In this document: piece by piece, positions 4,006 to 61,705 of the stretch
Layout: each line of letters starts with the position of its first letter
Numbering within the stretch: position 1 is the first letter of the stretch
Assembly: GCF_946463545.1 (NCBI RefSeq)
Contig: NZ_OX296583.1
Coordinates: forward strand, 1,091,035 to 1,155,034
Length of the DNA stretch: 64,000 nt
DNA from: Methanothermococcus thermolithotrophicus DSM 2095
GTDB taxonomy: Archaea > AGJL01 > Methanococci > Methanococcales > Methanococcaceae
Reading direction: 5' to 3'
Notes under the pieces: generated by a model
The model's database searches: none
The model's input: the letters and a program-made list of their open reading frames with translations, nothing else
What the model was told of the DNA's origin: nothing
Made by a program: the position numbers and the translations under genes

Positions 4006-4530
4006 TTATCTCTTACTCATTTTAGAGCTCCAAATATAGAGGGGGTTTCCTTTATAGTTAATCAGCTTTAAGCATTCAATAGGCTGTTCACCATGAAGAG
4101 GTTTTATAATTAGGTCACAGCTCACCTTCTTAGCTATGTCATAAATAAACGGCTGTAAATCCCTTGGAGGTCTGATAGAGTATATTAAATCAGATCCTCT
4201 GTAAATGTCCATATTTGGGTTAAATATATCATCAACAACACCATTTAGTAATTGATTTCTTGCTTCTTCTATAGCTTTTTCATTTGCATCTACAACAGTT
4301 ATGTTTGCCCCATTTTCTTTTAATTTTTTAGCTACTTCGAAGTAGAACCCAACACCTATTTCAATTATTTTTGGTTTTCCCACTGGATTCGAAAATCTCT
4401 GATTTTCGTAACCTACCGGATTCGGAAGCCTTTGGCTTCCGTAACCTACTGGATTCGAAAACCGAAGGTTTTCGTAATTTCCGTCTTTTAGTCCGTAATT
4501 CTGATAAATATAATCAAAAACATATTCCAT
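4006..4530 (-). CDS. UPF0146 family protein with in-frame palindromic repeat insertion
   Basis: UPF0146 proteins are small archaeal Rossmann-fold proteins resembling methyltransferases; function is unknown. The nucleotide-binding-like motif KIIEIGVGFYFEVA follows the insertion, with VVDAN as a motif II acidic loop. Between residue 18 and this motif sit about 33 residues made of an 11-aa unit (NPVGYENQRFS and variants) repeated three times, encoded by three tandem 33-bp palindromic units (4381-4479). Without it the protein would have the usual size of about 140 aa. The start at 4530 is chosen because GAGGGATTTC precedes that ATG; an upstream TTG at 4542 is less likely. Confidence 0.82.
   Translation of the reverse strand: MEYVFDYIYQNYGLKDGNYENLRFSNPVGYGSQRLPNPVGYENQRFSNPVGKPKIIEIGVGFYFEVAKKLKENGANITVVDANEKAIEEARNQLLNGVVDDIFNPNMDIYRGSDLIYSIRPPRDLQPFIYDIAKKVSCDLIIKPLHGEQPIECLKLINYKGNPLYIWSSKMSKR
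4381..4479. repeat. Three tandem 33-bp palindromic units inside a CDS (family C)
   Basis: Three adjacent 33-bp units each contain a hairpin (GAAAATCTCTGATTTTC, GGAAGCCTTTGGCTTCC, GAAAACCGAAGGTTTTC) and a shared edge ACTGGATTCG / CGTAACCT. Hairpin arms differ between copies but stay self-complementary. Because 33 is a multiple of three and no stop is created, the UPF0146 frame is kept. The same unit recurs inside the gene at 61013. Confidence 0.9.
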
Positions 4531-4654
4531 GAAATCCCTCAAGCGTATTTTGTTAGATTCGTATGATGATATTGGTATTATGGTCGTTCTAGGACTTTAT
4601 AAAATTTTATATTTATAAATAATAAATAAAACTTTGAAAAATATGGGTGTAAAT

Positions 4655-4828
4655 TAGTTGTTTGCGAAATTTATTGGAATTTGTTCATATATTACAAATT
4701 TTTAAAATGGTTGTTATTATTGCTTTAAATTTTAAAATAAAGGAAATGGATCCTAAAATATATGACAAAACCCAGTTTGCCGATTAATTTTATTGGAGTT
4801 AATATTCAATATCTAACGCAAACAACTA
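4655..4828. mobile_element. Small inverted-repeat element (family B, diverged)
   Basis: A 174-bp AT-rich stretch begins with TAGTTGTTTGCG and ends with its exact complement CGCAAACAACTA. The ends resemble the TAGTCGTTCTGCGAA ends of the other family B elements in this window. It has no coding capacity. It fills most of the 380-bp gap between UPF0146 and the DJ-1/PfpI gene, which also holds TATA-like sequence near 4610. Confidence 0.5.
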
Positions 4829-4912
4829 TGATTGTAAACGACTTATAATAAATGATATAAACCATACGGATATAGTTTTTGTTATAATTTGTAACTTAAT
4901 GAGGGGGTTTGA

Positions 4913-5428
4913 ATGGTTGTATTGATAGTTATAGCTCCAAAAGATTTTAGAGACGATGAACTTTTTGATCCATTGCAGGTGTTTTATAATAAAAATATTG
5001 CTGCACAGATGGTTTCAACTACCGTAGGGGAACACACGGGAATGTTGGGGGGAAGAGCAACAACAAAAAGGACTATTAACGATGTAAATGTTGATGATTT
5101 TGATGCTATAATGATTGTAGGGGGCATAGGATCTAAAAAATACCTCTGGAACAATGAAGATTTGATAGATCTTGTAAAAAAATTCTATGAAAAAGGAAAA
5201 ATAGTTTCTGCAATATGTCTTTCTCCAGTGGTTTTAGCTAAGGCAGGTATTTTAAAAGGTAAAAAAGCTACAGTATATCCTGTAAAAGAAGCAATAGACA
5301 TACTAAAAGAAAATGGTGCCGAGTACGTCGATGAAGGCGTAGTTACAGATGGAAACATCATAACTGCTAAAGGTCCAGAATTTACAATAGTATTTGGAAA
5401 TAAAATAGCTGAAATGCTTGAGAAATAA
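4913..5428 (+). CDS. DJ-1/PfpI family protein
   Basis: A 171-aa single-domain protein of the DJ-1/PfpI superfamily (proteases, chaperones, glyoxalases). The nucleophile-elbow cysteine is C102 in SAICLSPVVLA; the His that follows the Cys in true PfpI proteases (AICHGP) is Leu here, so proteolysis should not be assumed. Glycine-rich IVGGIGS (about 68-74) is the usual loop. GAGGGGG lies 4-9 bases before the ATG. The role in the cell, perhaps in carbonyl or oxidative stress, is inferred from the family only. Confidence 0.85.
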   Translation: MVVLIVIAPKDFRDDELFDPLQVFYNKNIAAQMVSTTVGEHTGMLGGRATTKRTINDVNVDDFDAIMIVGGIGSKKYLWNNEDLIDLVKKFYEKGKIVSAICLSPVVLAKAGILKGKKATVYPVKEAIDILKENGAEYVDEGVVTDGNIITAKGPEFTIVFGNKIAEMLEK

Positions 5429-5531
5429 CTTTTTTAATTTAACTTTTTTAATAAATTAATTTATTAATTTTTTTAATTTAATTTAATATTTATTAAAAAT
5501 TGTTAACATTAAGGTAATATTAGGTAATAGC

Positions 5532-6374
5532 ATGAATGCGAACACTAACTCCAGAGATAACATAACCAAAACAAAATCTGTTCAGAATCCAGGGGAATCT
5601 AAAATAAAGTATCAAAAAATAGGCGACATATTGATTGTTAAAAGAAGTTTAACAGACGATGAAATAAAAGAACTTGTTAAAAGAACCAACTGCAGGACTA
5701 TAGTCAAATATAGTACACATATAACCGGAGATTTTAGAACTCCCCGTGTAAGGGTGATCTATAGCAGTAATATGGGCAGTAACGATAATAACGAAACTGA
5801 AACAATTCACAAAGAACATGGTTGTAGATTTAAAATAGATGTTTCAAAGGTAATGTGGAGCATGGGGAATATAGAAGAAAGGAAAAGAATGGCCCATATA
5901 TCAAATCCAGATGAAACAGTTGTGGACATGTTTGCAGGAATAGGTTATTTCAGCATACCTATGGCAAAATACTCAAAACCTAAAAAAATCTATTCTATTG
6001 AGATAAATCCTAACTCATACCACTATCTCTGTGAAAATATAAAACTAAACAAACTGGACAATATGGTTGCAATATTGAGTGATAATAGAAAGGTTATGAT
6101 GGAGAACATGGCAGATAGAATTATAATGGGATATGTTTTAAAAACCCATAAGTTTTTAGATAAAGCCTTTGAATTCCTAAAAGATAAAGGAGTTATACAT
6201 TACCATGACACGGTGGCAGAAAAAATTATGAATATCAGACCTATAGAACAGCTCAGATATCACGGAGAAAAAAACGGCTATAAATTAACTGACTACAAAA
6301 TAAACAAAATAAAGAAATACTCCCCAGGAGTTTGGCACGTTGTTGTTGATGCTGAATTTGAAAAAAATGAATAG
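5532..6374 (+). CDS. taw2: tRNA(Phe) wybutosine-pathway aminocarboxypropyltransferase (Tyw2/Taw2)
   Basis: Predicted to move the 3-amino-3-carboxypropyl group of SAM onto 4-demethylwyosine at G37 of tRNA-Phe. The 280-aa protein is a Trm5-like fold: N-terminal region with TGDFRTPRVRV, then DMFAGIGYFSIPMA (SAM motif I, about 134-147), YSIEINP (motif II) and CENIKLNK. The motif after the SAM site differs from Trm5, favouring Taw2 over the m1G37 methyltransferase, but confusion between the two is possible. AGGTAAT lies before the start. Confidence 0.78.
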   Translation: MNANTNSRDNITKTKSVQNPGESKIKYQKIGDILIVKRSLTDDEIKELVKRTNCRTIVKYSTHITGDFRTPRVRVIYSSNMGSNDNNETETIHKEHGCRFKIDVSKVMWSMGNIEERKRMAHISNPDETVVDMFAGIGYFSIPMAKYSKPKKIYSIEINPNSYHYLCENIKLNKLDNMVAILSDNRKVMMENMADRIIMGYVLKTHKFLDKAFEFLKDKGVIHYHDTVAEKIMNIRPIEQLRYHGEKNGYKLTDYKINKIKKYSPGVWHVVVDAEFEKNE

Positions 6375-6417
6375 AATAAGAATAAATAATATTAAGTAAT
6401 GATTTAAACAATATAAG

Positions 6418-7350
6418 TTATAAAAACTCAAAACCATCTTCTTTTCTAATGAACCTTTTTCCTACATTAACTGTAAAGTTTATTTCCCTTCCAAGTGCAT
6501 TATCCACCAAAAGGCTTCCAAGTGAAGGGTCTGTACTGATTCCACAAACTGAAGTTGTGATTCTTGGATTTATTTCTAAAATGTTTATTTCTTCACCAAC
6601 TAACACATCCACTCCTACATAGCCGTTTAAACCATCGATTTTTCTCAGCGCCTTTTCGGATTCCTTTATTATTTCTTCCTTTAATGGATGGTTTATGTTT
6701 ACTTCTCCACCACAGTATATATCGTTGATATACTGCCTGTTTAAGCATATAGGATATATTTTGTCATTCTGTCCAACAATAAAACTAACAGAATACGGAG
6801 CTCCTTCTACAAATTCTTGGATTACATATTCTTCATCAAGTACCTGATGAGCACCGCCGCACCCGCTTGTCTCTTTTATAACATATTTTTTTAATGGATA
6901 TGTTTTAGGAGTTTTTACGGCTTCTTTTATGGCTTCGTAGGTTAAATATTTATTTCCTGCGATTTTAACCCCCTTACTTGAAGAACCGATATTGATAACC
7001 TTATGTTTTTCGATTAACTTAGTTAGCTCATATAGGATGTTTTCGCATTCTGGTGCAATAATCAACGCCATATCCACTTCATCCAGAATATTTTCAATTT
7101 TAGATATATAATCGTCATTTTTATTTAAAGATATAACATTGAAATTTGATGAATTATTTTGTGAGTTGTAATATTTTTCATCGATTAGTGAAGTTACCTG
7201 GTGCCCACTACTTAAAAAATGGTTTAAAATAGTATCATACATCAACCTACCTTCTTCAAGTATGTCTTTATCAACGATTTCTCCGCTACCTACTGCATAC
7301 TCAAAAAATAGTATTTTAGGATAATGGGGATTTTCAGATTCTCTATTCAT
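6418..7350 (-). CDS. mfnD: Tyramine-glutamate ligase MfnD (methanofuran synthesis)
   Basis: ATP-grasp ligase joining tyramine to the gamma-carboxyl of glutamate, an early step in making the C1 carrier methanofuran. The N-terminus KILFFEYAVGSGEIVD is characteristic, and the ATP-grasp C-terminal core is seen in YVIQEFVEGAPYSVSF and the metal-binding ILEINPRITTS. The ATG at 7350 is preferred because GGTGCAG precedes it; a GTG at 7368 is the alternative. Its upstream neighbour (7373-8347) is very close, so the two form an operon. Confidence 0.87.
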   Translation of the reverse strand: MNRESENPHYPKILFFEYAVGSGEIVDKDILEEGRLMYDTILNHFLSSGHQVTSLIDEKYYNSQNNSSNFNVISLNKNDDYISKIENILDEVDMALIIAPECENILYELTKLIEKHKVINIGSSSKGVKIAGNKYLTYEAIKEAVKTPKTYPLKKYVIKETSGCGGAHQVLDEEYVIQEFVEGAPYSVSFIVGQNDKIYPICLNRQYINDIYCGGEVNINHPLKEEIIKESEKALRKIDGLNGYVGVDVLVGEEINILEINPRITTSVCGISTDPSLGSLLVDNALGREINFTVNVGKRFIRKEDGFEFL

Positions 7351-7372
7351 ACCTGCACCTTTCTGCACATTT

Positions 7373-8347
7373 TTAAATTTTTACAATCTTCATTATTTCC
7401 TCAGAACCTTCGGTAGGTTCAATTAATCCATTGTAAACATCTGATACAATATCTTCTATCAGTTTTATTTTTGTGTTTTTGTTTTTTTTGTAGGACTGTA
7501 TCATCAATGGACAGTCTAAGTAAATCTGCTGAGCTCGGGAATTAGAAAACTCCAAGATACTTTCTAATTTTTTAATTAATGAATTTCTCTTTAAAGGAAA
7601 TAGTTTAAGGAAATTTACAATATGAATTCCATCCTTAAAGACGTAGTCTTCATCCATATGGTTGTTTATTATGCATTTGATTCCCATATCTTTAGCTTCA
7701 CTTATAACATATTTTTCCAAGCTATTGCAGACCTTATAGCATGGATAATTTTCTATAGCACTTAAAATATCATCCTTACCTAATTTAAAAGGTTCTATAA
7801 ACTTATGTGGGATATTTAATATCTTTAGGACATCTTCAATTGCTTTTTTGTTTTTTGGTGGTAAAATAACAGTTCCAAGGTCATAAGTTATACCGAAAGG
7901 CTGGAAAAATTCCTTTAAATATGCTAAAACTGGTAAATCGTATTTACACTGGACTAAAACAAGAACTTTTTCATCGTTAATTTTTAAATTTTTTTCTTCT
8001 AAGAACTTAATTGCATGTTTGGTTTTTTCATCCAGTATTACTTTATCCACGTAACTTTCGACCCTTATTATCAGGTCTTTATTAAATAAATCCCTAAGAG
8101 ATTTGCTCAACTTTCCTATTGCCCATCCTCCAGGACCTATTAACGTGGATTTATCAGACCTGGTTAATGTATATATTATTAAAAAAGTTTTTTCATTGCC
8201 AATCTTCTCTGCGTCATCCTGCGGGCCAAGTGATTTTATTTCCAAATCTACTATTTCAAATTCGGTTTCTTTTAAATTTAGTTCCTTTCTTATGCTTTTT
8301 ACTTTTTTGTAGATTTCATCCATTAAATGTTCTTTATCCATCATCAT
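7373..8347 (-). CDS. Archaeal protein with KH-like GPGG motif, possibly PP-loop-related
   Basis: A 324-aa protein I only partly recognise. Residues near 75-105 contain GPGGWAIGKLSKSL, resembling the GxxG loop of KH RNA-binding domains. The following segment (VLVLVQCKYDLPVLAYL) sits where PP-loop ATPases carry SGGxDS, but that signature is absent, so any ATPase activity would be degenerate. Conserved-looking Cys occur at YPCYKVCNSLEKY. It may act in tRNA or rRNA modification, which is inference. The start at ATG 8347 follows AGTGATT; a GTG at 8356 is possible. It lies upstream of mfnD in the same operon. Confidence 0.55.
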   Translation of the reverse strand: MMMDKEHLMDEIYKKVKSIRKELNLKETEFEIVDLEIKSLGPQDDAEKIGNEKTFLIIYTLTRSDKSTLIGPGGWAIGKLSKSLRDLFNKDLIIRVESYVDKVILDEKTKHAIKFLEEKNLKINDEKVLVLVQCKYDLPVLAYLKEFFQPFGITYDLGTVILPPKNKKAIEDVLKILNIPHKFIEPFKLGKDDILSAIENYPCYKVCNSLEKYVISEAKDMGIKCIINNHMDEDYVFKDGIHIVNFLKLFPLKRNSLIKKLESILEFSNSRAQQIYLDCPLMIQSYKKNKNTKIKLIEDIVSDVYNGLIEPTEGSEEIMKIVKI

Positions 8348-8439
8348 AGTAATCACTTCAATAAAATAAAAATAAGTATGTAAAATATGATGCTACCCTA
8401 TGTAGGTATTTATTCTATAGGGCGGAATAATAAAAATAG

Positions 8440-9087
8440 TTAGTTATTTATTTGTAATGTTTTGTTTTTCAATTTGGCAATTATGGTTTCTCCTGCATAG
8501 ACTTTATCGTCCTTTTTTACAAGTACTTCATATTTGTCTTTTGGCAATATTACCGCAGCCTGAGAACCTAACTTTATAATACCTATCCTCTGTCCGATAG
8601 TTACATAATCCCCTTCATTAACATTACTAACCGTTCTCCTTGCCACCATTCCGGCAATTTGAACTACCCCAACGTAGTCTGTGCCATTTTTTATAATAAT
8701 CACATTTCTTTCATTTTTCCCTTCTACGCCGCTACCAAATGCAGGATAGTATCCCCCATCAAAGTGCTTAACATATACAACCTCTCCACCAATCGGAGCT
8801 CTATTGACATGGACGTCAAAAGGAGACATGAATATTCCAATCACGTAGGAACCATTTCTGTAGTAATTCTCAATATCTTTTAAAACATACTTGTTGCCAT
8901 CCTTGTAGACTTCTGGAAATCCGTCGTATTCCTTTATGTATAAAACCGTTCCATCTGCAGGGGATATACAGATGCCTCGTTCATTTAGTGGCGGCGTTCT
9001 TTCTGGGTCTCTATAAAAATAAACTGTAAATAACAGTATAGAACATATACCTACTGCCAGGAATTTTTGGTATGATTTCAAATTCAT
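8440..9087 (-). CDS. asd: Archaetidylserine decarboxylase proenzyme (PSD-A type)
   Basis: Pyruvoyl-dependent decarboxylase converting archaetidylserine to archaetidylethanolamine in membrane lipid synthesis. Typical sequences are FYRDPERTPP near the N-terminus, ISPADGTV, FMSPFDVHVNRAPIGG and the self-cleavage site KLGSQAAVI, where the serine (about residue 175) would become the pyruvoyl group. One N-terminal membrane segment is present. The 215-aa start at 9087 gives the usual family length; the frame stays open to an ATG at 9192 (250 aa), but that start lacks a ribosome binding site and would add a second hydrophobic segment. Confidence 0.88.
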   Translation of the reverse strand: MNLKSYQKFLAVGICSILLFTVYFYRDPERTPPLNERGICISPADGTVLYIKEYDGFPEVYKDGNKYVLKDIENYYRNGSYVIGIFMSPFDVHVNRAPIGGEVVYVKHFDGGYYPAFGSGVEGKNERNVIIIKNGTDYVGVVQIAGMVARRTVSNVNEGDYVTIGQRIGIIKLGSQAAVILPKDKYEVLVKKDDKVYAGETIIAKLKNKTLQINN

Positions 9088-9291
9088 TTTTAACACTCTC
9101 AAACTTTGTAACACATATATACATAAAACTAAGAATAAATGAAAATAGTATATATTATTTACCATGGGTAATGCAATATGTTTTATTATCATTATGGTTA
9201 TAATATATTATTAACATAGGACAGTTATAAAAAACGAGAGATTAAAATCGAAGGTTTTCGGAGCTCACCTTCATTACATTCAGGTGATATA

Positions 9292-10065
9292 ATGAAAATA
9301 GCCATTACGGGAAAAGGGGGAGTCGGTAAAACATTTTTATCTGCAACCTTAGCTAGATTATTTGAAAAAAATAATTACAAAGTTATAGCAGTTGATGCCG
9401 ATCCAGATATGAACTTAGGATGTGCCCTTGGAATAGATGAAGAAATAACTCCCCTCTCTAAAATGGACGATTTGATAGAAGAGAGAACAGGAGCAAGAGT
9501 TGGAGAATACGGTAGTGTTTTCAAAATTAACCCAAAGGTAGATGATATTTTAGACAAGTACTCATATACAAAAGGTAATATCAGTTTGTTGGTAATGGGA
9601 ACAGTTGAAAAAGGGGGAGGAGGTTGTGTCTGCCCTGCTACAGTTTTGTTGAGGAGACTTTTAAAGCATTTGGTAACTAAAAGGGATGAAGTTGTTATAC
9701 TGGATATGGAGGCTGGTATAGAACATCTTGGTAGAAAGGTAACTGAAAATGTAGATTTGATGATTGTAGTTGTTGAACCCTCTAAAAAATCCATCCTAAC
9801 TGCAGAAAGGATAAAAAAACTAGCAAATGATATTGGTGTTACAAACCTGAAGGTAGTTGTTAATAAAGTTAAAAACAAAGAAGAAAAAGAAATCTTCAAA
9901 GAAATATTTGAAAAGGAAGTGGGAATCCCAATACTTGGTTTTGTTTCCTATAACGATGAGGTTTCAAAATGTGATTTGGTTGGAAAACCTATAGACTTAA
10001 GTTCAAAACCTGGAAGAGAAATAGAAGATATATTTAAACACATAATAGAAACTAAAAATAAATAA
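9292..10065 (+). CDS. CooC-like nickel-insertion/P-loop ATPase
   Basis: A 257-aa MinD/CooC-type ATPase. The deviant Walker A GKGGVGKT is at residues 7-14, followed by VDADPDMNLG. The motif GGGGCVCPATVLL (about 103-115) matches the metal-binding CxC of CooC, the ATPase that helps nickel enter carbon monoxide dehydrogenase. A role in maturing the CODH/acetyl-CoA synthase is therefore likely, but no CODH gene is in this window. The ribosome binding site is GGTGATATA. Confidence 0.8.
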   Translation: MKIAITGKGGVGKTFLSATLARLFEKNNYKVIAVDADPDMNLGCALGIDEEITPLSKMDDLIEERTGARVGEYGSVFKINPKVDDILDKYSYTKGNISLLVMGTVEKGGGGCVCPATVLLRRLLKHLVTKRDEVVILDMEAGIEHLGRKVTENVDLMIVVVEPSKKSILTAERIKKLANDIGVTNLKVVVNKVKNKEEKEIFKEIFEKEVGIPILGFVSYNDEVSKCDLVGKPIDLSSKPGREIEDIFKHIIETKNK

Positions 10066-10112
10066 AATATATAAAATAAATCTGTAACTTAGAGTTATCA
10101 AAAGATAGTGAA

Positions 10113-11051
10113 TTATGATTTAAAGTATGGTTCTCGCTTATTAATGCATTTAGCAAAATACTTTTTAATATCCTCTCCATTTCTCAATGGGGTTAAAACA
10201 TCAACTAAATTATTGTCCCTAAGTAAACAAGGTTTTAAAAATCCATCGTAAGTTAGTCTAATTCTGGTACAGTGGCTACAAAATTCTGTATTATCCACCG
10301 GCCTTACAAATTCAATTTCCAAATTATCGACAATATATTTTTTTCTGTTTTGCATGAATTTTCTTGTTATTATTTTATCAGCTTTATCGCTTATCATTTT
10401 TTCTATTGGCTGGATGTCAACATAATACTGTTTTAACTCCTCATCTGTGGGTATAAATTCTATAATCTGTAAAATAGCCCCAATATCCCTGCAATAGTTC
10501 ATTATTTCGTCCAAATGATTAATATTAATACTCATTGCCAAATAATTTACTTTTAATGGTGTTAGTCCAACTTCAATGGCTTTTTCTATTCCTTTTTTTG
10601 TTCTCTCGATATTCGTTTCATAGGTTTTGGTTTTGTAATCATTTACTTCGTGGAGACTTCCGCAGGTGATTTTTGTATACAACTCTGGGTCTAAGGTATC
10701 TAAACTAACATTAACCCTATTTAATCCAGCGTTTTTTAATCCCTCAGCATATTTTTCCAATAGCATCCCATTTGTAGTTAATGAAATATCTTTTATTCTT
10801 TCATCCTTAATGTTTTCAACTATTTGCACTATATCCTTCCTTAAAAGTGGCTCCCCTCCGGAAATCTTTATTTTCCTTACGCCAAAATCCAAAGAAGTCC
10901 TTGTAATTTCCCCAATTTCTTCAGGAGTCATTAATATTTTATTGCCATTTGAATTATGCCCCTCCCTATGGCAATAAAAACATTTCAAGTTGCATTCAGG
11001 GGTTACCGAAATCCTTAAGGATCTTATTTCCCGATCAAATCTATCTTTCAT
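10113..11051 (-). CDS. moaA: GTP 3',8-cyclase MoaA (molybdopterin synthesis)
   Basis: Radical SAM enzyme that starts molybdenum/tungsten cofactor synthesis from GTP. The N-terminal cluster motif is CNLKCFYC (about 20-27) and the C-terminal cluster is Cx2Cx13C (CSHC...KPC, about 259-276); GGEPLLR is the SAM-binding motif. The C-terminal Gly-Gly found in many MoaA proteins is not evident; the protein ends in PYFKS. mobA nearby (12077) serves the same cofactor, needed for formylmethanofuran and formate dehydrogenases. GGGATATA precedes the ATG. Confidence 0.93.
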   Translation of the reverse strand: MKDRFDREIRSLRISVTPECNLKCFYCHREGHNSNGNKILMTPEEIGEITRTSLDFGVRKIKISGGEPLLRKDIVQIVENIKDERIKDISLTTNGMLLEKYAEGLKNAGLNRVNVSLDTLDPELYTKITCGSLHEVNDYKTKTYETNIERTKKGIEKAIEVGLTPLKVNYLAMSININHLDEIMNYCRDIGAILQIIEFIPTDEELKQYYVDIQPIEKMISDKADKIITRKFMQNRKKYIVDNLEIEFVRPVDNTEFCSHCTRIRLTYDGFLKPCLLRDNNLVDVLTPLRNGEDIKKYFAKCINKREPYFKS

Positions 11052-11201
11052 TATATCCCTTGTAAATTATTAAAGATATAAAATAACAGAAACACGTGGC
11101 TATAATATACACAATACACTATTACATATATATTATATGTTAATTAATTATGTTGTAAATTTTTATAAATTATATTAGTTAAAAAATAAAAAATTTATAA
11201 T

Positions 11202-11891
11202 TTATTCTTTTTTCCCTTCTTTTTTCTTTAAGAATGTATCTACAAATGAAACTTTTTCAATATCCAATCTTTTCATGATTTCGTTAGCTATGCCCATTTT
11301 GATCATTTGGAGGTTGTTCATGAATACGGTATTTTCAGGGAGTGTTATTGTAGCTGTGTTTTTTGTGAGTTTTATTTTTAATTCTTCGGAGTTTATTTTT
11401 GGGATGTACATTTTTATTAATTCTTCGACTATTTTTTCAGGTTCTTCAACCACTTCTTCTATTTTTATTTTGTAGTTAACTGTTTTTCCAGCTAATTCAT
11501 GGTTGAAGTCAACTAAAACTCTTCCTCCGTTGATACTGGCTACTTTACCAACTTTTCCATCGATGTTCATAGATAATCCAACTACTGGTCTTACATTGTG
11601 TTTTTGGAATTCTTTCATAGGTACGATTTTTACTTTTGATGGATCTCTTTTACCGAATGCTTTTTCTGGAGGTAATTCAAGTTCTCTCTCTTCCCCAACT
11701 TCCATCTCCAATAGTGCCTCATCTAATCCTGGAATAAGCATACCTTCCCCAGCTGCAACTGTGACTGTATCGTAAACCATTACTGGATTGTAAATTCCTT
11801 CTTTTTTAGCCAACTCTTCACTTGTTGTGTCAAATAATTTTCCATCAGCATAACCTTCGTATGATATTTTTACCAGTTTCCCTTTTTCCAT
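11202..11891 (-). CDS. FKBP-type peptidyl-prolyl isomerase (long archaeal form)
   Basis: Protein-folding enzyme and chaperone of the SlyD-like long FKBP class (229 aa). The first about 150 residues carry the FKBP domain with its inserted flap ([49 protein letters not shown]); the rest is an extra C-terminal domain typical of methanogen long FKBPs, ending in a charged Lys/Glu tail. ATG at 11891 is preceded by GGTGAATACC; the GTG at 11900 lies within that site and is unlikely to be the start. Confidence 0.92.
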
Positions 11892-12076
11892 GGTATTCAC
11901 CTTGTATATATTTTATTTGATTCTATCTATTTGATAAAACCCTTAAGGTTTTATAACTTATCTTCGTTTTTATATTATTCTTAAGTGTTCGGATAAACCT
12001 GTACAACAACTATAAATAAAAGACATATATAAATTTTGTTAAAATCCTGTAATGATCTACTAATTGGAGGATATTG

Positions 12077-12781
12077 ATGATTTCAGCTATTATCCTATCG
12101 GGCGGGAAAGCAAAGAGAATGGGTGGAGAAAAATCTTTTAGAAAATATAATGAAAAATTTTTAGTGGAAAATATAGCTGATGTTCTCGTCGAGATGAAAA
12201 TCCCATTTATAACTGTTTTTAAAAATCTGAAATTAATAAATGGGCCGGAAAATTATAAAAAATCTCACTCATTAACTAAAACCATAGATACGGAAATAGC
12301 AAATCAGCTCTATTTTTTTAGAAAATACCGCCAAACAATAACATGGGACATTTTAAGTGATAAAGGACCACTGGTGGGTATCTTATCTGGGATGAGGGTT
12401 TCGAGCTCAGAATGGATTTTAGTACTTCCCTGTGACATGCCTTTTGTAACTAAAGACTCAATAAATAAACTAATAAATTTTATTCCCAATGCAAAATTAA
12501 AAAAATGCAATTGTATAGTCCCAAGACATGAAAATGGTAATTTAGAGCCTCTTTTTTCAATATATCATAAATCCTCAATTAAAGTACTTGAAGAGCTCGC
12601 TAGAAAAATAAAAGAAAATGAAGGTAATGTGAAAAAAGAGAAAAAAGAAAAATATTCCTCAATAAGAAAATTGATAGATAATTTAAAACCCCTTTACGTT
12701 GATGCAAATGAGATAGATCCTACCAAAAAGACTTTTATAAACGTCAATACATTGGATGACTTAAAATTATTAAATGGCTAA
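12077..12781 (+). CDS. mobA: MobA-like molybdenum cofactor guanylyltransferase
   Basis: Nucleotidyltransferase expected to add GMP to molybdopterin. The N-terminal loop ILSGGKAKRMGGEK is the signature, followed by LVGILSGM and the metal-binding LPCDMPFV. At 234 aa it is somewhat longer than bacterial MobA (about 195) because of a Lys-rich insertion near residues 180-200. An alternative is another NTP transferase such as CobY, but the spacing fits MobA better. GGAGGATATTG precedes ATG; a TTG three bases upstream is in frame. Confidence 0.82.
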   Translation: MISAIILSGGKAKRMGGEKSFRKYNEKFLVENIADVLVEMKIPFITVFKNLKLINGPENYKKSHSLTKTIDTEIANQLYFFRKYRQTITWDILSDKGPLVGILSGMRVSSSEWILVLPCDMPFVTKDSINKLINFIPNAKLKKCNCIVPRHENGNLEPLFSIYHKSSIKVLEELARKIKENEGNVKKEKKEKYSSIRKLIDNLKPLYVDANEIDPTKKTFINVNTLDDLKLLNG

Positions 12782-12833
12782 ACGAGTATTTTATTAATTA
12801 TCTCATTAATGGTCATTTATAGTCCTTTCCTTC

Positions 12834-13143
12834 TATAGTGGTGTGCATTACTTAATTAACTAATAAATACAGGTAAATTTTATTCCAAGCCTTTTAGAAA
12901 ATCGAAGCAAATCTTCGATTTGCTGACTCACAAAAATTCGAAGAATTTTTGTCGAGAGGTTTGGATTGAACAAAAATCACGAAGTGATTTTTGTAGCTCA
13001 TCTCGCTTCGCTCGATGATTCCAAAATCGGATACCTACTCAACTTCGTTGAGTAGGTATATATAGATTGGCAAATCCTACGAAAACCATCCTTTATAAAT
13101 GGGTTGAAAATGAGTAGTTAGCTTAAAATTGCACACCACCATA
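12834..13143. mobile_element. Inverted-repeat element (family A, copy 1) invaded by hairpin units
   Basis: Starts with TATAGTGGTGTGCA and ends with TGCACACCACCATA. The first about 50 bp are nearly identical to the inner sequence of the copies at 42064 and 48304. Those are about 150 bp long; this one is 310 bp because several family C hairpins are lodged in the middle. It occupies the gap between mobA and the MBL-fold gene and has no coding capacity. Confidence 0.7.
12895..13070. repeat. Cluster of family C hairpin units
   Basis: At least four palindromes occur in a row: CGAAGCAAATCTTCGATTTGC, AAAAATTCGAAGAATTTTT, AAAAATCACGAAGTGATTTTT and TACTCAACTTCGTTGAGTA. They are separated by short linkers such as GACTCAC, TCGAGA and TTGTAGCTCATC. 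The same linkers flank hairpins at 17.8, 43.9 and 61.4 kb. Confidence 0.8.
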
Positions 13144-17714: not shown

Positions 17715-17960
17715 TATCGACGAAACCGAAGGTTTCGTGAGTCTTAACGAAAACCTTTCAGGTTTTCGTAAGTCAGCGAATTTTTTGAAATTCGCTTCGA
17801 CTCGACAAAAATTCAAAGAATTTTTGTGAGTCAGCGAATCCAAAGGATTCGCTTCGACAGCAAATTTCTTTGAAATTTGCTTCGATTTCTAAAGGTTGGA
17901 GATAAAGCTTTAAAAAAGCTTTCAGATAAATCCCTTCGGGATTTGGCTTTGCCGTGATGA
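17715..17960. repeat. Long cluster of family C hairpin units
   Basis: At least six palindromes follow one another between gatC and L41e: CGAAACCGAAGGTTTCG, CGAAAACCTTTCAGGTTTTCG, AGCGAATTTTTTGAAATTCGCT, CAAAAATTCAAAGAATTTTTG, AGCGAATCCAAAGGATTCGCT and CAAATTTCTTTGAAATTTG, then a GCTTTAAAAAAGC-type hairpin and TCCCTTCGGGA. Linkers GTGAGTC and TTCGAC alternate between units. No coding function is seen; transcripts would fold into a chain of hairpins. Confidence 0.85.
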
Positions 17961-43859: not shown

Positions 43860-44095
43860 TACTTCTCGACAAAAACCAAAGGTTTTTGTGAGTCTCGACA
43901 AAAATTCTTCGAATTTTTGTGAGTCAGCGAATTTCTTTGAAATTTGCTTCGACAGCGAATCTTCGATTCGCTTCGACTTAACTTCGTTAAGAAGTATCCG
44001 GTTTTGGAATCACCAACGAAGTTGGTGAGCTACAAAATCCCTTAGGATTTTGTTCAATCAAAACCTTTTTCTAAAAGGTTTTGCTCTATACTATA
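43860..44095. repeat. Cluster of family C hairpin units
   Basis: At least eight palindromes in a row, including CAAAAACCAAAGGTTTTTG, CAAAAATTCTTCGAATTTTTG, AGCGAATCTTCGATTCGCT, CTTAACTTCGTTAAG, CACCAACGAAGTTGGTG, CAAAATCCCTTAGGATTTTG and AAAACCTTTTTCTAAAAGGTTTT. Linkers GTGAGTC, TTCGAC, GAGCTA and TTCAATC recur as at 13, 17.8 and 61.4 kb. It lies directly upstream of a C/D sRNA. Confidence 0.85.
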
Positions 44096-54744: not shown

Positions 54745-55458
54745 TTAAAATATTTTTGTATAAATCAGTATTGCACTGAGGCTTCCCACAAGGGTGGCTA
54801 TAAAATTAACGTGTTCGTTATTGATTATTCCCTTTCTTTCAAATAGAGCTCCAACAAGACTGTCTGAAAGATTGCCCAATAATCCAGCAACTGTGGCTAT
54901 CCAAATTAAATTCAAATCCTTAAATAGCAGGAATGCTAAAAAACCTATTGAAAATGAACCTAAAAGCCCCAAAAGTGTTCCAAAGAGTGTTATCCCACCA
55001 TCAGTACCTTTTTCAACTTTTTTAAGAGTGGTTATTAATCTTGGAGTTTCTTTTGAGAGCACCCCGAGCTCAGATGAAAATGTATCTGAAGTAGCAGCAG
55101 CAATTGAGCCTGCATATCCTATCAGTGCCACATCATAATTCAGAATTCCAAATGCATAGGCTAAGACAAATAAAACAGCCATAATCCCATTTGCAAGGAC
55201 ATTTTTAATTGTCCTTTTACATTCTCCTAATTTCATAGAATCTTTTGTAGAATATCCTATTTTACTTACTAAACTCCCCAGTACAAGGAATGAAAAAAGT
55301 AATATCAACCAGCTTATCTCAGTACTTATAAGGATTATAAATGCCATTATTGATGAAGCGTAAATCCCACAATCATCCAAATACCCTTTTTTCTTTATCA
55401 AATATGCCAATAATAAAACAATAACAAGGGAATAAATTATCTTAATGTAAAGTTCCAT
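54745..55458 (-). CDS. DUF92 (TIGR00297) integral membrane protein
   Basis: A 237-aa membrane protein with about six helices. It carries SIAAATSDTFSSELGVLSKETPRLIT and KGTDGGITLFGTLLGLLGS, the signature of the DUF92 family, whose plant/cyanobacterial members include VTE6 phytyl-phosphate kinase. In archaea a prenyl-phosphate kinase activity linked to lipid salvage is conceivable but unproven. GGTGGAAAC precedes ATG; trmJ follows. Confidence 0.85.
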   Translation of the reverse strand: MELYIKIIYSLVIVLLLAYLIKKKGYLDDCGIYASSIMAFIILISTEISWLILLFSFLVLGSLVSKIGYSTKDSMKLGECKRTIKNVLANGIMAVLFVLAYAFGILNYDVALIGYAGSIAAATSDTFSSELGVLSKETPRLITTLKKVEKGTDGGITLFGTLLGLLGSFSIGFLAFLLFKDLNLIWIATVAGLLGNLSDSLVGALFERKGIINNEHVNFIATLVGSLSAILIYTKIF

Positions 55459-55524
55459 GTTTCCACCGAGCTAAATATAAATAAATTTTAATAACTTTTA
55501 ATGTTTTAAAGTTTTTGGTATGTT

Positions 55525-55645
55525 TATAGTCGTTCTGCGAATGTATGCATATAAGTATTATCTAATTTCAATTATGTATTGTTTAAAAACTTCCATAATT
55601 TAAAATTAAGTAATATAACAATCGCTTAATTGCAGAACGACTATA
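55525..55645. mobile_element. Inverted-repeat element (family B, best copy)
   Basis: TATAGTCGTTCTGC at the left and GCAGAACGACTATA at the right are exact complements (14 bp), bounding a 121-bp AT-rich element with no ORF. It lies in the 430-bp gap before the HIT gene. The remainder of this gap (55646-55893) shows only AT-rich sequence and a short inverted pair TTTCTTTTTCGG / TTTTGAAATAG without clear meaning. Confidence 0.65.
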
Positions 55646-55893
55646 TTTTATATTGTTGATGTTATGAAATGAATTTTCAAGAACTTCAAAGAAGTTTATA
55701 ACATTCAATCCTTTGTGTATATCTATTTCTTTTTCGGTTCAAATTTTGAAATAGATCCCATTAAAAGTTTTAAATTTACCAGGCCTTAACTGTTGATTAT
55801 GATAATGATAAAATAACTCAAATAAAAAAATTATTAAGTAGTTATAATATATACTTTATATTAAAAGTATATAAACAAATCAAAGGTGTGAAT

Positions 55894-56286
55894 ATGTGTA
55901 TATTCTGCAAAATCGTAAATAAAGAGATACCTGCTAAAGTGGTTTATGAAGACGAAAAGACCATGGCTTTTTTGGATGTAAATCCAAGAAGTAAAGGCCA
56001 TACTCTTGTAATTCCAAAGGAACACTACGAGACATTTGATGAGCTCCCTGATGATGAAATGATCAATTTAATGAAAACTGTTAAAAAAGTTGTTGAAATC
56101 TTAAAATCACTAAACCCTGATGGATATAACATTTTAAACAACAACAAACCTGCTGCTGGGCAGGAAGTTCCACATGTTCATTTTCATGTAATTCCAAGAT
56201 ATAATGAAGAAAAAGAAGAGGTTATAAAATTCTCTGAACCTATAGCTGTAAATTTAGATGATGTTTTGAATGAATTAAAAAAATAA
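55894..56286 (+). CDS. HIT family nucleotide-binding protein
   Basis: A 130-aa histidine-triad hydrolase/transferase acting on nucleotide conjugates. The triad is HVHFHVIPR (about 97-105) and the N-terminal CIFCKIVNKEIPAKVVYEDE is usual for Hint-type proteins. ATG 55894 gives the family length, with AAGGTG upstream; a GTG at 55888 is possible. Confidence 0.93.
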   Translation: MCIFCKIVNKEIPAKVVYEDEKTMAFLDVNPRSKGHTLVIPKEHYETFDELPDDEMINLMKTVKKVVEILKSLNPDGYNILNNNKPAAGQEVPHVHFHVIPRYNEEKEEVIKFSEPIAVNLDDVLNELKK

Positions 56287-56300
56287 TTTTTTAATTCAAA

Positions 56301-56939
56301 TCATGCCTTTTCATTATTACTTAAGGCAATAATGCCATTTGCTATAGCTACTGCAACTGGGGTGCCTCCCTTAGGTCCTACCGTAGTTATTGAAGGGATA
56401 TCAGTATCTCTAAGAAGTTCTTTTGATTCACTGGCTTTTACAAAGCCCACAGGAACCCCAATAATCAATTTTGGTTTTACTCCCTCTTCTTTTACCATCC
56501 TTATAACTTCTAAAAGTGCAGTTGGCGCATTACCTACTACCACTACCCCTCCATCGATGAGATCTTTTGCAATTCTCATAGAAGCCACTGCCCTAGTTAT
56601 TTCCTCTTCTTTAGCTATTTTATAGGTATTTTCATCACTTATAAAGCACTTTATATTCTCGTACCTTATACCTGCGCCTACCATGTTTATATCGACAATC
56701 AAAGGCTTTCCATGTTTAATGGCTTCAACTCCATATTTTATTGCATCCCCCTTGAATTTAACCAATTTGGCATATTCTGGGTCAGCTGTTGCATGGACTA
56801 CCCTTTCTATTATTCCCAATTCCGCCTCTGAATAGTCATTTATGTTGGAGCCGAGAACCTCTTTTATTTTACTTTTTACTATTTCCCTAGATTTTTCAGC
56901 GATATTTAACCCGTCTCTGGTGGTGGCACCCATGAACAT
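56301..56939 (-). CDS. cbiC: Precorrin-8X / cobalt-precorrin-8 methylmutase
   Basis: Moves the C-11 methyl to C-12 in corrin synthesis, producing (cobalt-)hydrogenobyrinic acid. The 212-aa protein shows the catalytic histidine in RVVHATADPEYAKL (about 43), VDINMVGAGI, VGNAPTALLEVIRM and PVGFVKASESKELL. ATG 56939 after GGTAGATACT gives the usual length; the ORF can open at 56969. It complements cbiJ (30156) in the same pathway. Confidence 0.94.
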   Translation of the reverse strand: MFMGATTRDGLNIAEKSREIVKSKIKEVLGSNINDYSEAELGIIERVVHATADPEYAKLVKFKGDAIKYGVEAIKHGKPLIVDINMVGAGIRYENIKCFISDENTYKIAKEEEITRAVASMRIAKDLIDGGVVVVGNAPTALLEVIRMVKEEGVKPKLIIGVPVGFVKASESKELLRDTDIPSITTVGPKGGTPVAVAIANGIIALSNNEKA

Positions 56940-57114
56940 AGTATCTACCTTGAATAATGTGTTTAACAATTAAAACATACTAACTTAAAAATTTTAAGAG
57001 CTCCTTAATTTCATAAAACTAAATAAAATTGATTGTTAGAGATTCATATTTGTTTCTATTTATAGGCCCTAATACTTATTTATATAGTTGTGGTAGTTAT
57101 CTTTTTAATCAAAA

Positions 57115-57387
57115 CTAGATAATTCTAAGAACTACTTTTTCTTTTTCACTGTGTTCTTTTATATGAACTACTTCAATTAAATCCTTTACAACATCTGCAA
57201 TATCCAGTTCCAATACTCCCATTAAATCGTTATCTGTATCCACCCTAAAGTAGGTCCCACTTTTACAAACTACTGTGCCTTCCACATGGCATCTCCCAAA
57301 GTAGGCTTCTATATGGTCCCCCTCTTCAATAGAATCTAGATAATCATACAGTTCGTCTTTATTAACATCTCTTTCAATAACCTTCAT
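57115..57387 (-). CDS. DUF2097 methanogen protein
   Basis: A 90-aa protein of the DUF2097 family, found in methanogens, function unknown. The sequence EGDHIEAYFGRCHVEGTVVCKSGTYFRVDTD suggests a small beta-barrel (SH3/OB-like). ATG 57387 after GGTGATTTT is preferred over the longer frame at 57417. It stands alone between cbiC and the DUF63 gene. Confidence 0.7.
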   Translation of the reverse strand: MKVIERDVNKDELYDYLDSIEEGDHIEAYFGRCHVEGTVVCKSGTYFRVDTDNDLMGVLELDIADVVKDLIEVVHIKEHSEKEKVVLRII

Positions 57388-57486
57388 AAAATCACCTTTA
57401 TTGAGGATATTCAACAACTATTTTAAAAGTTATTAAATAAATAATATATTATTATTTAAATAAATAAGGTTTTGAGACCACTTCAT

Positions 57487-58311
57487 TTAAACTCCCATCA
57501 CAATCCTGAACAGGTTCCTAAGGCCTGGAGCTAATCCTAAAGACATTATGGTTATTTTCAATATATTTCTTAAATCCTTATTATCAATTTCTTTGTTAAT
57601 AATATATAGCACCAATACGACCACGATTAATTTTAAGGGTATGAGAATATACGGACCAAGAATATCCATAAAAAACCTTGGTACTGGATGCTGTTCCCAA
57701 TAGCCGTAAATGCCAATACCTATGGATGTGGCTGATGCATCCACTAATTGAGAAAATATAGCGTATTTATCAATTCTATCGATTTTGCCAATGTTTAGTT
57801 TTTTTATATTTTTGAGTTTCTCTAAAATACGAATTGCAATGAAATATGTTGGGAATAGAACCACTAAGGTGTAAAATAATGCTTCTAAATGCGTTATTCT
57901 CTTTAAAAACTCCGGTAAAAGGTAAATTATAGGAACCAGAGCCATTAAACTAGCTGAAATATAGTATCTATTTTTAAACAATGCTCCAGAGCCGATTATT
58001 GAAAGCATATAATATAGTCCAACTAAAACCACTATCCCTGGAGTTACCGTGTAGTATAAACGGGGGATAACGCCTGCATCAACTAATGCCCTCATTAAGG
58101 TTATTAAAATTACGTAAAAAATAGTTACCTCTGCAAATCTTTTATCGACACGTATATTTAAAAAGTTACATGCCTTATAGAATATATAAACCATTACAAA
58201 TAGTAAAGTACCATAAGTTATCTCTTGGATAAGATTATAACCGGTTTTAGCATGTATTGGATAGATGTAGTATTTATTTATGAATTCAAGTACAGTATTT
58301 TTTATATCCAT
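57487..58311 (-). CDS. DUF63 integral membrane protein
   Basis: A 274-aa protein with about seven membrane helices, matching the archaeal DUF63 family (LMRALVDAGVIPRLYYTVTPGI near 90-111 and DASATSIGIGIYGYWEQHPVP near 191-211 are the conserved stretches). Function is unknown. GGTGAACTACA precedes the ATG. Confidence 0.82.
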   Translation of the reverse strand: MDIKNTVLEFINKYYIYPIHAKTGYNLIQEITYGTLLFVMVYIFYKACNFLNIRVDKRFAEVTIFYVILITLMRALVDAGVIPRLYYTVTPGIVVLVGLYYMLSIIGSGALFKNRYYISASLMALVPIIYLLPEFLKRITHLEALFYTLVVLFPTYFIAIRILEKLKNIKKLNIGKIDRIDKYAIFSQLVDASATSIGIGIYGYWEQHPVPRFFMDILGPYILIPLKLIVVVLVLYIINKEIDNKDLRNILKITIMSLGLAPGLRNLFRIVMGV

Positions 58312-58421
58312 TGTAGTTCACCACATGTTTTATCCCTACTATAAAGTATCCCCTAAATATTAAATGCTTTTTTATAATTAAACAAAAAAAATTATAGTGA
58401 AATCGAAAATCAGTAGATTAT

Positions 58422-58772
58422 TTAAAGTAATTTCAGTTTTCCAGTGATTTTATTGATATTGTCTTCTTTTTCGGGTCCAATGCCTACTGCAGTAATTGTC
58501 CCAGGTTCTAGCTGGGTTCTGCCTGCATCCCTAATTAAACTACATGGGAGACCTTCTATATTGGCATTTTTAAATACTTCGAGTAATTCTTTTTCAGAAT
58601 TTACTTTTAACACTACTTTCTTTTGTCCAGATCTTAACCATTCCTTAACTATATTTGGACATATTTTTTGAGCATGAATAAATGATTCAATTGAAGCATG
58701 ACATGCCTGAGCTGCAATTTTACCCTTACCCATTTTTAAATCGTTTCTAATAATAATGACCTGTTCATACAT
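58422..58772 (-). CDS. pth2: Peptidyl-tRNA hydrolase, Pth2 type
   Basis: Releases stalled peptidyl-tRNA. The 116-aa protein is the archaeal/eukaryotic Pth2 form: [66 protein letters not shown]. Length and motifs are complete. TTGATTTT precedes the ATG. Confidence 0.96.
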
Positions 58773-59009
58773 AAAATCAACTCACAAAAGTTTATAAATA
58801 ACGGTGCTGGATAGATGATACATTATCTATTTTAATATTTGTAGCTTTCATTATAATGCTTCCACAAACATGCAAATTCGGCTTAAATAGATTAAAATCA
58901 ATTAAGGTCACAAGTGATGAAGTGATGAAGTGGTTTTATTGACTTTGTGGGGTCATTATATTTATTAATTTTAGTGAAATTATAATTTTATTAAATCTAC
59001 GGTGGAAAC

Positions 59010-60962
59010 ATGTTTGAGATAAAACATAGAGATGCAATGGGCAGAATAGGAAAAATAAAAATAAACGGTAAAACAATCGAAACACCAACAATAATGCCGG
59101 TAGTTCATCCTAATCCAAAAAAACAAACCGTTTCAATGGATATCATCAACAACCTTGCAGACGTAATTATAACAAACTCATATATAACTTACTCGAATCC
59201 TGAACTAAGGGCTATTGCAGAGGAAAAAGGAATCCACGAGCTCGTAGGATTTGATAAGGTTGTGGTTACAGATAGTGGATCTTTTCAGCTCAGTGTTTAT
59301 GGGGATGTAGAAGTAAAACCTTTGGAGATAATAGAATTTCAAGAAAAAATTGGGGTCGATGTAGGTACCATATTGGATATACCGACACCGCCATTTGTTG
59401 ATAGGGAAAGAGCTGAAAAAGAGCTGGAAGAAACGATTAATAGGGCAAAGTTATCTTTGGAATTAAAAAAAGAAAACAACTACAAACTGTTATTGAATGG
59501 AACTGTCCAAGGTTCAACACATATGGATTTAAGAAGAAAAAGTGCGGAAGTAATGGGAAGTATGGACTTTGATATCTATCCAATTGGTGCAGTTGTACCA
59601 TTAATGGAGGATTACAGGTACAAAGAAGTTGCTGAGATTATAATAAACTCCAAAATGCATCTTCCAACAAATAAGCCTGTCCATCTCTTTGGGTGCGGTC
59701 ATCCTATGTTTTTTGCACTTGCAGTGGCGTTGGGATGTGACTTATTTGACAGTGCAGCTTATGCACTCTACGCAAAACAGGGAAGGTATTTAACTGAAAG
59801 AGGAACCTTGCATTTAGAAGAATTAAAGGATTTAGATAAATTCCCATGTTCCTGTAAAGTATGTAGTGAATACTCACCAAAAGAGCTCTACAAAATGGAG
59901 AAGAAAAAAAGAACACAGTTACTTGCTGAACACAACCTTTACGTAACATTTGAAGAGATAAACAGAATTAAAAATGCCATTAAAGATGGAAACCTTTGGG
60001 AGCTCGTAGAGGAAAGATGCAGATGCCACCCAATGTTATTGAGTGCTCTAAGGGTAGTTTCAAATTATATGGATTTTATAGAAAAGTATGACCCAGTTTC
60101 AAAAAAATCTGCATTCTTTTACGGCGGATATGAGAGTATGTTTAGACCAGAAGTTTTAAGGCATAAACAGAGGCTTAAAAGAATAAAATTTGATAAAATA
60201 TATGTTACAACACTATCGAACAAGGTAAATAAACCATACAGTGAAAATGTCAATATTATACCTTCTGACGTGGATGTTTTAGTTAAAGATTATGTATTTG
60301 GTTTAGTGCCGTTGAATGTTGATACAATATATCCGCTTTCCCAAAGTGAAGTTCCAGAACTTTACGATATTGAAAAACAACACAATAAACAATTTATTGA
60401 AGGATTTTTAAAAGAACACGAAGATAAAATAATGGATATATCTTCATACAACTACTACACCAGTCATTACGGTTCAAATAGAAATAAAAACAAAGTAAAT
60501 AAAGACGCCTTAAGAATAGACAGAATGCTCCAGTATCAGTATGGATTTAAGATTTTAGATGATGAATTGTTAAACAACATAGTAATAAAGAGAAGCAGAA
60601 AAACAGGAAGAATTAGAAATGTAATGTTGGACAATAAAGAAGTCATATTTACAGTTAGAGCCAACGATAACTTCCTTATACCTACAAAAGAAGGTGCTAA
60701 ACTTTTGCATGAAAAAATACCATATCCTAAATACAGGGTTGTAGTGGATAAAAGTGTTCAGGACTTTGCAAGGGACGGTAGGTCAGTTTATGCCAAGTTT
60801 GTAATCGATTGTGATAATGATTTAAGACCTTACGAAGAAGTATTAATAGTTAATGAAGATGATGAACTACTTGCATACGGGACTACGATTCTAAATAGTA
60901 GGGAATTGATGGAATTTGATTACGGCGTAGCTGTTGATGTGAGAGGCGGTATTAAGTTATAA
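59010..60962 (+). CDS. tgtA: tRNA-guanine(15) transglycosylase (archaeosine synthesis)
   Basis: Exchanges G15 in archaeal tRNA for preQ0, the first step to archaeosine. The 650-aa protein has the TGT barrel (VVTDSGSFQL with the catalytic Asp, VQGSTHMDLR, HLFGCGHPMFFALAV), the zinc motif FPCSCKVCSEYSPKEL with a downstream His, and the archaeal C-terminal domains ending in a PUA domain (YRVVVDKSVQDFARDGRSVYAKFV). The length equals that of other archaeal enzymes. GGTGGAAAC precedes ATG. Confidence 0.97.
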   Translation: MFEIKHRDAMGRIGKIKINGKTIETPTIMPVVHPNPKKQTVSMDIINNLADVIITNSYITYSNPELRAIAEEKGIHELVGFDKVVVTDSGSFQLSVYGDVEVKPLEIIEFQEKIGVDVGTILDIPTPPFVDRERAEKELEETINRAKLSLELKKENNYKLLLNGTVQGSTHMDLRRKSAEVMGSMDFDIYPIGAVVPLMEDYRYKEVAEIIINSKMHLPTNKPVHLFGCGHPMFFALAVALGCDLFDSAAYALYAKQGRYLTERGTLHLEELKDLDKFPCSCKVCSEYSPKELYKMEKKKRTQLLAEHNLYVTFEEINRIKNAIKDGNLWELVEERCRCHPMLLSALRVVSNYMDFIEKYDPVSKKSAFFYGGYESMFRPEVLRHKQRLKRIKFDKIYVTTLSNKVNKPYSENVNIIPSDVDVLVKDYVFGLVPLNVDTIYPLSQSEVPELYDIEKQHNKQFIEGFLKEHEDKIMDISSYNYYTSHYGSNRNKNKVNKDALRIDRMLQYQYGFKILDDELLNNIVIKRSRKTGRIRNVMLDNKEVIFTVRANDNFLIPTKEGAKLLHEKIPYPKYRVVVDKSVQDFARDGRSVYAKFVIDCDNDLRPYEEVLIVNEDDELLAYGTTILNSRELMEFDYGVAVDVRGGIKL

Positions 60963-61012
60963 TTGATTTTTTATTTTTTATAACTGGAAAAAGTTAGTTG
61001 GAGCTGAGCTAC

Positions 61013-61705
61013 ATGTTAAAACTACTTTATAAAGGGATATTGATTAGGGATAACGATAGAATAAAAAAAGCCTCATCATCTGTAACGTACATTGGTACAA
61101 AAAAACATAATATAATAGTTGACACATCGTCTAAGGATAATAGGGAGCTCATAATAGAAGAATTAAAAAAGTTAGGATTAAAACCCGCTGACATAGATAT
61201 TGTTATAAACACTCACAGCCATCATGACCATGTTGGAAACAACGATTTATTCAATAATGCAGAATTTATAAACTACAGCAACATCGAAAACCTAAAAGAT
61301 TACGAAAATCAAAGATTAAACAAAAACTCTTCGAGTTTACGAAAACCTTCGGTTTTCGAATCCAGTAGGTTTTGTAGCCCACCACTATCACCGAGCGAAG
61401 CGAAGGTGAGCTACAAATCCGAAGGATTTGTTCAATCGTGGTGGTTTTCGAATCCAGTAGGTGATGAAATTGAGATTATAAAAACTCCAGGCCATACTCC
61501 AGACAGTATTTCAGTAATTTATAAAGAATATATAGTTGTTGGAGATGCAGCACCGTTAAAAAATAATATTTTAAAAAATATTCCCCCAAAATTAAACTAT
61601 GACGCCGGTATTGCATTAGCATCTTTAAGAAGGATAAAAAGCATTGGGAAAAACATTGTAACAGGTCATGAAGGCATAGTGTACAGGGATGAATATATTA
61701 AATAA
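61013..61705 (+). CDS. MBL-fold hydrolase with in-frame hairpin-repeat insertion
   Basis: A 230-aa metallo-beta-lactamase-fold protein: zinc motif NTHSHHDHVGN (about 65-75), then TPGHTPDSISVIYKEYIVVGDAA and GHEGIVY. Between these lies a stretch of about 45 residues (roughly SSSLRKPSVFESS... to ...FSNPVG) encoded by family C hairpin units at 61335-61470; it replaces nothing essential and would be an exposed loop. Removing it brings the protein to about 185 aa. The substrate is unknown. ATG 61013 follows GGAGCTGAGC; a TTG at 60998 is in frame. Confidence 0.8.
   Translation: MLKLLYKGILIRDNDRIKKASSSVTYIGTKKHNIIVDTSSKDNRELIIEELKKLGLKPADIDIVINTHSHHDHVGNNDLFNNAEFINYSNIENLKDYENQRLNKNSSSLRKPSVFESSRFCSPPLSPSEAKVSYKSEGFVQSWWFSNPVGDEIEIIKTPGHTPDSISVIYKEYIVVGDAAPLKNNILKNIPPKLNYDAGIALASLRRIKSIGKNIVTGHEGIVYRDEYIK
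61335..61470. repeat. Family C hairpin units inside a CDS
   Basis: A unit CGAAAACCTTCGGTTTTCG + AATCCAGTAGGT opens the segment and a partial copy TTTTCGAATCCAGTAGGT closes it, with ACAAATCCGAAGGATTTGT and CACCGAGCGAAGCGAAGGTG hairpins between. CGAAAACC.../...AATCCAGTAGGT is the reverse complement of the 33-bp unit in the UPF0146 gene at 4.4 kb. Confidence 0.88.

Follow-up and report, generated by a model that had tools for sequence, protein, structure and literature searches.

The stretch of DNA analysed here (the window; 64,000 bp of Methanothermococcus thermolithotrophicus DSM 2095, contig NZ_OX296583.1, positions 1,091,035 to 1,155,034) carries a 33-bp hairpin unit inside two genes, one coding for a UPF0146 family protein and the other for a metallo-β-lactamase (MBL)-fold protein (Table 1). 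A first-pass annotation, made from the letters alone, had proposed that the same unit lies in both genes, and it was found at both loci. The extents had to be adjusted: the three tandem units of the UPF0146 gene, first placed at 4381-4479, occupy 4379-4477, a shift of two bases, and the MBL insert, described at 61335-61470 as mixed with other units, is such a mixture and is longer, with 162 bp at 61300-61461. The layout of the 33-bp unit is CCTACTGGATTCG-stem / 3-nt loop / stem-CGTAA. The UPF0146 units stand head to tail, and each reads TTACG-stem-loop-stem-CGAATCC(A/G)GTRGG on the gene strand.

The MBL insert is an 81-bp element split by a 33-bp unit and a 48-bp palindrome-bearing piece, and each of these components (81, 33, and 48 bp) is a multiple of three. 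The 81-bp element has the family termini TTACG...GAATCC.GTAGG, which are common to the 33-bp minimal unit and to 42-bp and 81-bp relatives. The peptide NPVG, said to be translated in both proteins, is encoded in frame in both genes; its source in the MBL gene is the 81-bp element and not the complete 33-bp unit, which is read in the other open frame. The ACCGAGCGAAGCGAAGGTGAGCTACA stretch of the 48-bp piece also occurs at intergenic sites (L015, L095), and the same nested arrangement is found in an intergenic copy at 1583215, which argues that composites were copied whole. An intact 81-bp relative lies at G000:C1:605217 (L094), in the leader of a class III prepilin-like gene, which we take to be a prepilin from its KGQVSLDAV signal-peptide motif; here the element stands upstream of the presumed cleavage site and might be removed with the leader. 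Single-sequence AlphaFold models of the UPF0146 and MBL proteins had a mean pLDDT of 35, and no structural claim is drawn from them.

Table 1 Positions in the window of the two host genes and of the parts of their inserts
Feature	Position	Strand	Characteristics
UPF0146 family gene, 174 aa from ATG at 4530	4006..4530	-	Pfam PF03686 E=4e-35; NF003165 above cut-off
33-bp unit 1 (gene order)	4445..4477	-	Stem GAAAACC/GGTTTTC, loop TTC; peptide YENLRFSNPVG
33-bp unit 2 (gene order)	4412..4444	-	Stem GGAAGCC/GGCTTCC, loop AAA; peptide YGSQRLPNPVG
33-bp unit 3 (gene order)	4379..4411	-	Stem GAAAATC/GATTTTC, loop AGA; peptide YENQRFSNPVG
MBL-fold gene, 230 aa	61013..61705	+	Pfam PF00753 E=3.2e-20; matches in 21/22 family genomes
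Entire palindromic insert, 162 bp = 54 codons	61300..61461	+	Absent from aligned orthologues
81-bp element, first part (TTACGAAAATCAAAGATTAAACAAAAACTCTTCGAGT)	61300..61336	+	
Complete 33-bp unit nested in 81-bp element	61337..61369	+	Peptide LRKPSVFESSR
81-bp element, middle part	61370..61389	+	
48-bp palindrome-bearing unit nested in 81-bp element	61390..61437	+	
81-bp element, last part, 3' end = second CGAATCCAGTAGG	61438..61461	+	Peptide FSNPVG

Copies in the genome, reading frames, and stem pairing

The census of the genome was compiled from pattern, edge, and covariance-model searches together. The pattern GGATTCG-N8-24-CGTAA matched 15 times genome-wide, against once for the reversed control, and a 19-base edge with up to 3 mismatches matched 18 times, against 0 for the controls. 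A covariance model (R1) built from 14 copies gave 17 matches with E<=1e-4. In all, 14 sites with 21 edge-bearing copies were counted. Eleven of the sites lie inside genes, where the frame is kept, and the unit is thus present well beyond the two genes first reported. One further model match, at 370329, is weak and resembles a tRNA T-arm (GGATTCGAA); it was judged coincidental.

Besides the UPF0146 gene with its three units and the MBL-fold gene, the hosts are the genes for homoisocitrate dehydrogenase AksF, an EcnA-type nuclease, XTP diphosphatase (XTPase), a LarE-like/DUF7411 protein, MetRS, Trm5, and NnrDE (two units in each of the last three), a TIGR00375 protein (two units, one degenerate), and the prepilin-like protein with its 81-bp element. 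Despite the insert, AksF, MetRS, XTPase, EcnA, the TIGR00375 protein, and UPF0146 score above their NCBIfam cut-offs. As 11 genic sites among 14 is the number expected from random insertion at a coding fraction near 0.84, the family does not avoid genes. The other palindromes of the genome, unlike the 33-bp family, do avoid them: in the window, strong hairpins outside the family are almost wholly intergenic.

On each strand of the 33-bp unit, two of the three frames are free of stops and the third has a stop. Insertions read on the TTACG strand use one open frame six times and the other five times, and never the stop-containing frame. The inserts in genes all have lengths that are multiples of three (33, 66, 99, and 162 bp), so that, given two stop-free frames per strand, each insertion lengthens the encoded protein by 11 (or 22, 33, 54) residues. 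If the hairpins were instead removed before or during translation, as an intron or by translational bypass, the peptide would never appear in the proteins, and neither the codon-multiple lengths nor the exclusive use of stop-free frames would be needed; in addition, no Rfam family matched anywhere in the window. Bypassed palindromic inserts are known in the mitochondria of the yeast Magnusiomyces capitatus (mentioned in PMC6649704); set against these regularities, removal appears very improbable here. With respect to the host gene, 11 of 12 independent insertions lie in the TTACG direction (two-sided p = 0.006), a bias that could stem either from tolerance of the peptide or from a strand-biased insertion mechanism.

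Among 14 distinct copies, four of the eight stem pairs are altered on both sides, 98.2% of the stem cells are paired, and the covariation score is higher than in any of 500 shuffles or in any slid control. The first-pass observation that complementarity is kept while the sequence varies is therefore well founded. Folded as single-stranded DNA, the units give z = -3.2 to -4.6. The annotation had taken this pattern to mean that a structure is being maintained or copied, which can be made more specific. Because three stem types are shared between different genes and mixed inside arrays, we infer from the sequences that the variation arises by exchange or duplication of whole hairpin cassettes and not by stem-by-stem paired mutation in place; a difference of a whole unit between two strains, described below, points the same way.

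Empty sites in relatives and turnover between strains

The residues encoded by the inserts are missing from related proteins. The 33 residues contributed by the three UPF0146 units are absent from the orthologues aligned from relatives, and all aligned MBL orthologues are without the 54 residues. This holds for all the other genera aligned, and the unit also recurs elsewhere in the genome, so that neither of the two outcomes named by the annotation as refuting it was observed. The XTPase of Methanocaldococcus jannaschii (structure 1b78) is exactly 11 residues shorter at the insert, and alignments of AksF, MetRS, and Trm5 with solved relatives have a gap at the insert position. In the window's species and in a Methanococcus voltae-like genome (G006), the EcnA nuclease is longer by 11 residues, located at one and the same place. 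In a genome of the same genus as the latter (G003), EcnA is without exactly 33 bp at the nucleotide level, and other aligned relatives are likewise without them; EcnA nucleotide identity to G006 is 80% for G003 against 74% for the window's species. This pattern is explained either by a clean loss in G003 or by two entries at the same site, both of which amount to precise gain or loss, with short-tract exchange between the two carriers as a further possibility. The EcnA site common to two genera might be taken to mean that the residues are ancestral and merely resemble repeats. This is hardly credible at all, as the other aligned orthologues are without the residues, that of a carrier's sister species among them, the same DNA lies in eleven unrelated genes, and such an origin is already refuted for UPF0146 and MBL.

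Among 36 genomes of the order Methanococcales, full-length units outside the window's genome were found only twice, once in EcnA of G006 and once in G007, where the copy is in frame in an unrelated gene (LYENLRFSNPVG). No full-length unit was found in 7 genomes of genus g3, model R1 had no match at E<=1e-4 in 14 Methanocaldococcaceae-like genomes (family f2), and the unit was not found in viral contigs. The unit occurs in more than one genus, with a patchy distribution.

Two related hairpins with different edges were seen in these genomes. One, a related hairpin core (CGAAAACCAAAGGTTTTCG), is carried in frame by an M. aeolicus-like mtnA gene, in a variable loop (L103 1501-1520); it was considered as a clean insert and set aside, as comparison with 1t9k shows none. 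In G006, the same hairpin core with the edges TTAGA...TTGCTCGCTTGC borders integrase-like transposase reading frames (L106, L107, 1501-1520), at places ~440 bp apart in each of two copies.

When 84,980 species genomes were scanned for the exact degenerate unit, a single contig matched, JASGMZ010000119.1 (L161), which is filed under a Bacteroidales metagenome-assembled genome. This contig is 99.9% identical over its whole length to window positions 4382-13058; horizontal transfer to Bacteroidales was rejected, the contig being misbinned and derived from the window's own species, of which it represents a second strain. Outside the palindromes, the two strains differ by 3 single-nucleotide polymorphisms in about 8.6 kb. 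In the second strain, 8 positions of the third UPF0146 unit are changed, and the unit equals a second copy of the GGAAGCC type. The second strain also has a 57-bp two-hairpin stretch between window positions 12925 and 12926, inside an intergenic hairpin array; as 133 matching bases lie beyond it, this indel is not an end artefact. On this one strain pair, palindrome turnover is much faster than single-base change.

These differences could be explained by tandem duplication or deletion, and the tandem arrays, the cassette-like stem types, and the failure to find a Y1 transposase in the genome would all suit elements that are no longer mobile, a few old insertions having spread by tandem duplication, slippage, and template switching without transposition. 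However, slippage cannot account for one and the same 33-bp unit turning up in eleven genes that are unrelated, nor for its presence in other genera, and the MBL composite is also present at an unlinked intergenic site, so that we hold this explanation to be unlikely. It is also quite improbable that the inserts are kept for a function, be it as an adaptive surface loop or as an mRNA hairpin acting on expression. The orientation bias of 11 to 1 and the maintained stem pairing would be in keeping with selection of this kind, but the host genes have no common pathway, the UPF0146 array appears variable between near-identical strains, and orthologues manage without the insert.

Known palindromic elements and a possible mode of spread

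The first-pass annotation had likened the units to the Rickettsia palindromic elements (RPEs; Ogata et al. 2000, 2002), and the likeness holds: as with RPEs and the Wolbachia elements, these are in-frame palindromes with an open reading frame throughout, lying in unrelated and often housekeeping genes and absent from the orthologues. The length of RPEs is 105-146 bp (PMC2229807), and their end is CGTC (PMC3733652). In contrast, the unit described here is 33 bp long (with 42-bp and 81-bp relatives), forms tandem and nested arrays, lives in an archaeal host, and does not have the CGTC end, the edges of the copies being TTACG-like and GTAGG-like. The exact-pattern scan of species genomes found the unit only in the window's own species.

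The annotation had presented such elements as apparently undescribed in methanococci. At the level of the order this was mistaken, since in-gene coding palindromes of M. jannaschii were published in 2005 (Suyama et al. 2005, FEBS Lett 579:5281, cited in PMC2996958 and PMC2229807). They resemble the present units in belonging to the same archaeal order and in being palindromic repeats fused into protein genes. The M. jannaschii elements are reportedly about 100 bp long and present in some 141 copies, only about three of them in genes. Here, by contrast, 11 of 14 sites are genic, and model R1 is unmatched at E<=1e-4 in the 14 Methanocaldococcaceae genomes, a comparison made with the model of the present units.

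Two other classes of elements were compared. The REP/RAYT elements with a GTAG tag are also hairpins of 20-40 bp in many copies, and GTAG stands near one end of many units here. However, GTAG is not conserved (GTGG, GTTG, GCAG, GCCG, and ATAG occur at its position), most copies are genic, and the genome yielded no Y1 transposase. On account of the variable tag and the transposase result, the GTAG/REP reading was abandoned. Miniature inverted-repeat transposable elements (MITEs) of bacteria and archaea are likewise non-autonomous, hairpin-forming, and patchy, but the present units are far shorter, and neither matching transposon termini nor a clear target-site duplication was identified. As far as tested, with the M. 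jannaschii repeats and RPEs compared by description, the units have an RPE-like way of life and form a family of their own. The unit length, the tandem and nested arrays, the strain-level turnover, and the preponderance of genic sites distinguish this family from the known ones.

We consider it likely that the units are a family of very short, codon-multiple, RPE-like palindromic mobile elements that are inserted in genes and translated in place. An insertion at a length-tolerant place would let the host enzyme survive, and the peptide would be translated and kept in the mature protein, presumably with a neutral effect on the host. New copies, nested composites included, would come from duplicative insertion of the whole unit and might then undergo tandem duplication or unit exchange. 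The feature recognised, be it by an enzyme or by the replication and repair of the host, may be the hairpin itself.

Several findings weigh against an element that is mobile in this sense. No transposase was linked to it, and the Y1/IS200-type transposase (PF01797) had no match in the window's genome (G000), while 5 of 14 control genomes were positive. There is no clear target-site duplication at the EcnA site, where the empty site differs by exactly 33 bp with at most TA duplicated. The UPF0146 difference between the strains is located at the contig end, and it is equally likely that an extra tandem unit is truncated there in the second strain. Finally, the 57-bp indel could reflect a loss from the window's strain; such a deletion is plausible because the longer arrangement recurs elsewhere in its genome.

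A bolder version of the mobile-element reading would have a 33-bp (11-codon) element spreading in genes without its own or any recognisable transposase, by hairpin-templated copying in replication or repair that is coupled to the direction of transcription (11:1); it would still be moving or turning over between near-identical strains and adding peptides to core enzymes now. We put this forward as a tentative possibility.

Two decades ago, in-gene palindromes were put forward as a way for proteins to gain new segments. The family described here would be a second, very small methanococcal example of ‘selfish’ DNA living inside working proteins. The unit is tiny, sits in enzymes that are well studied and have solved relatives (XTPase, MetRS, and Trm5), and has an exact empty site in close relatives. 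With strain differences in a probably culturable archaeon, gain, loss, and the effect on the protein are directly testable.

Other hairpins were seen in the same genome. One long gene, HD/helicase-like and possibly of Cas3 type, contains a degenerate hairpin core in frame, around G000:C1:80754-80777 (L084). Another mosaic family forms intergenic arrays of back-to-back perfect hairpins, at window positions 12906-13059, 17720-17944, 43869-44083, and 62623-62649; the stems are mostly 8-13 bp with 3-nt loops, and the arrays are repeated at several further intergenic sites of the genome.

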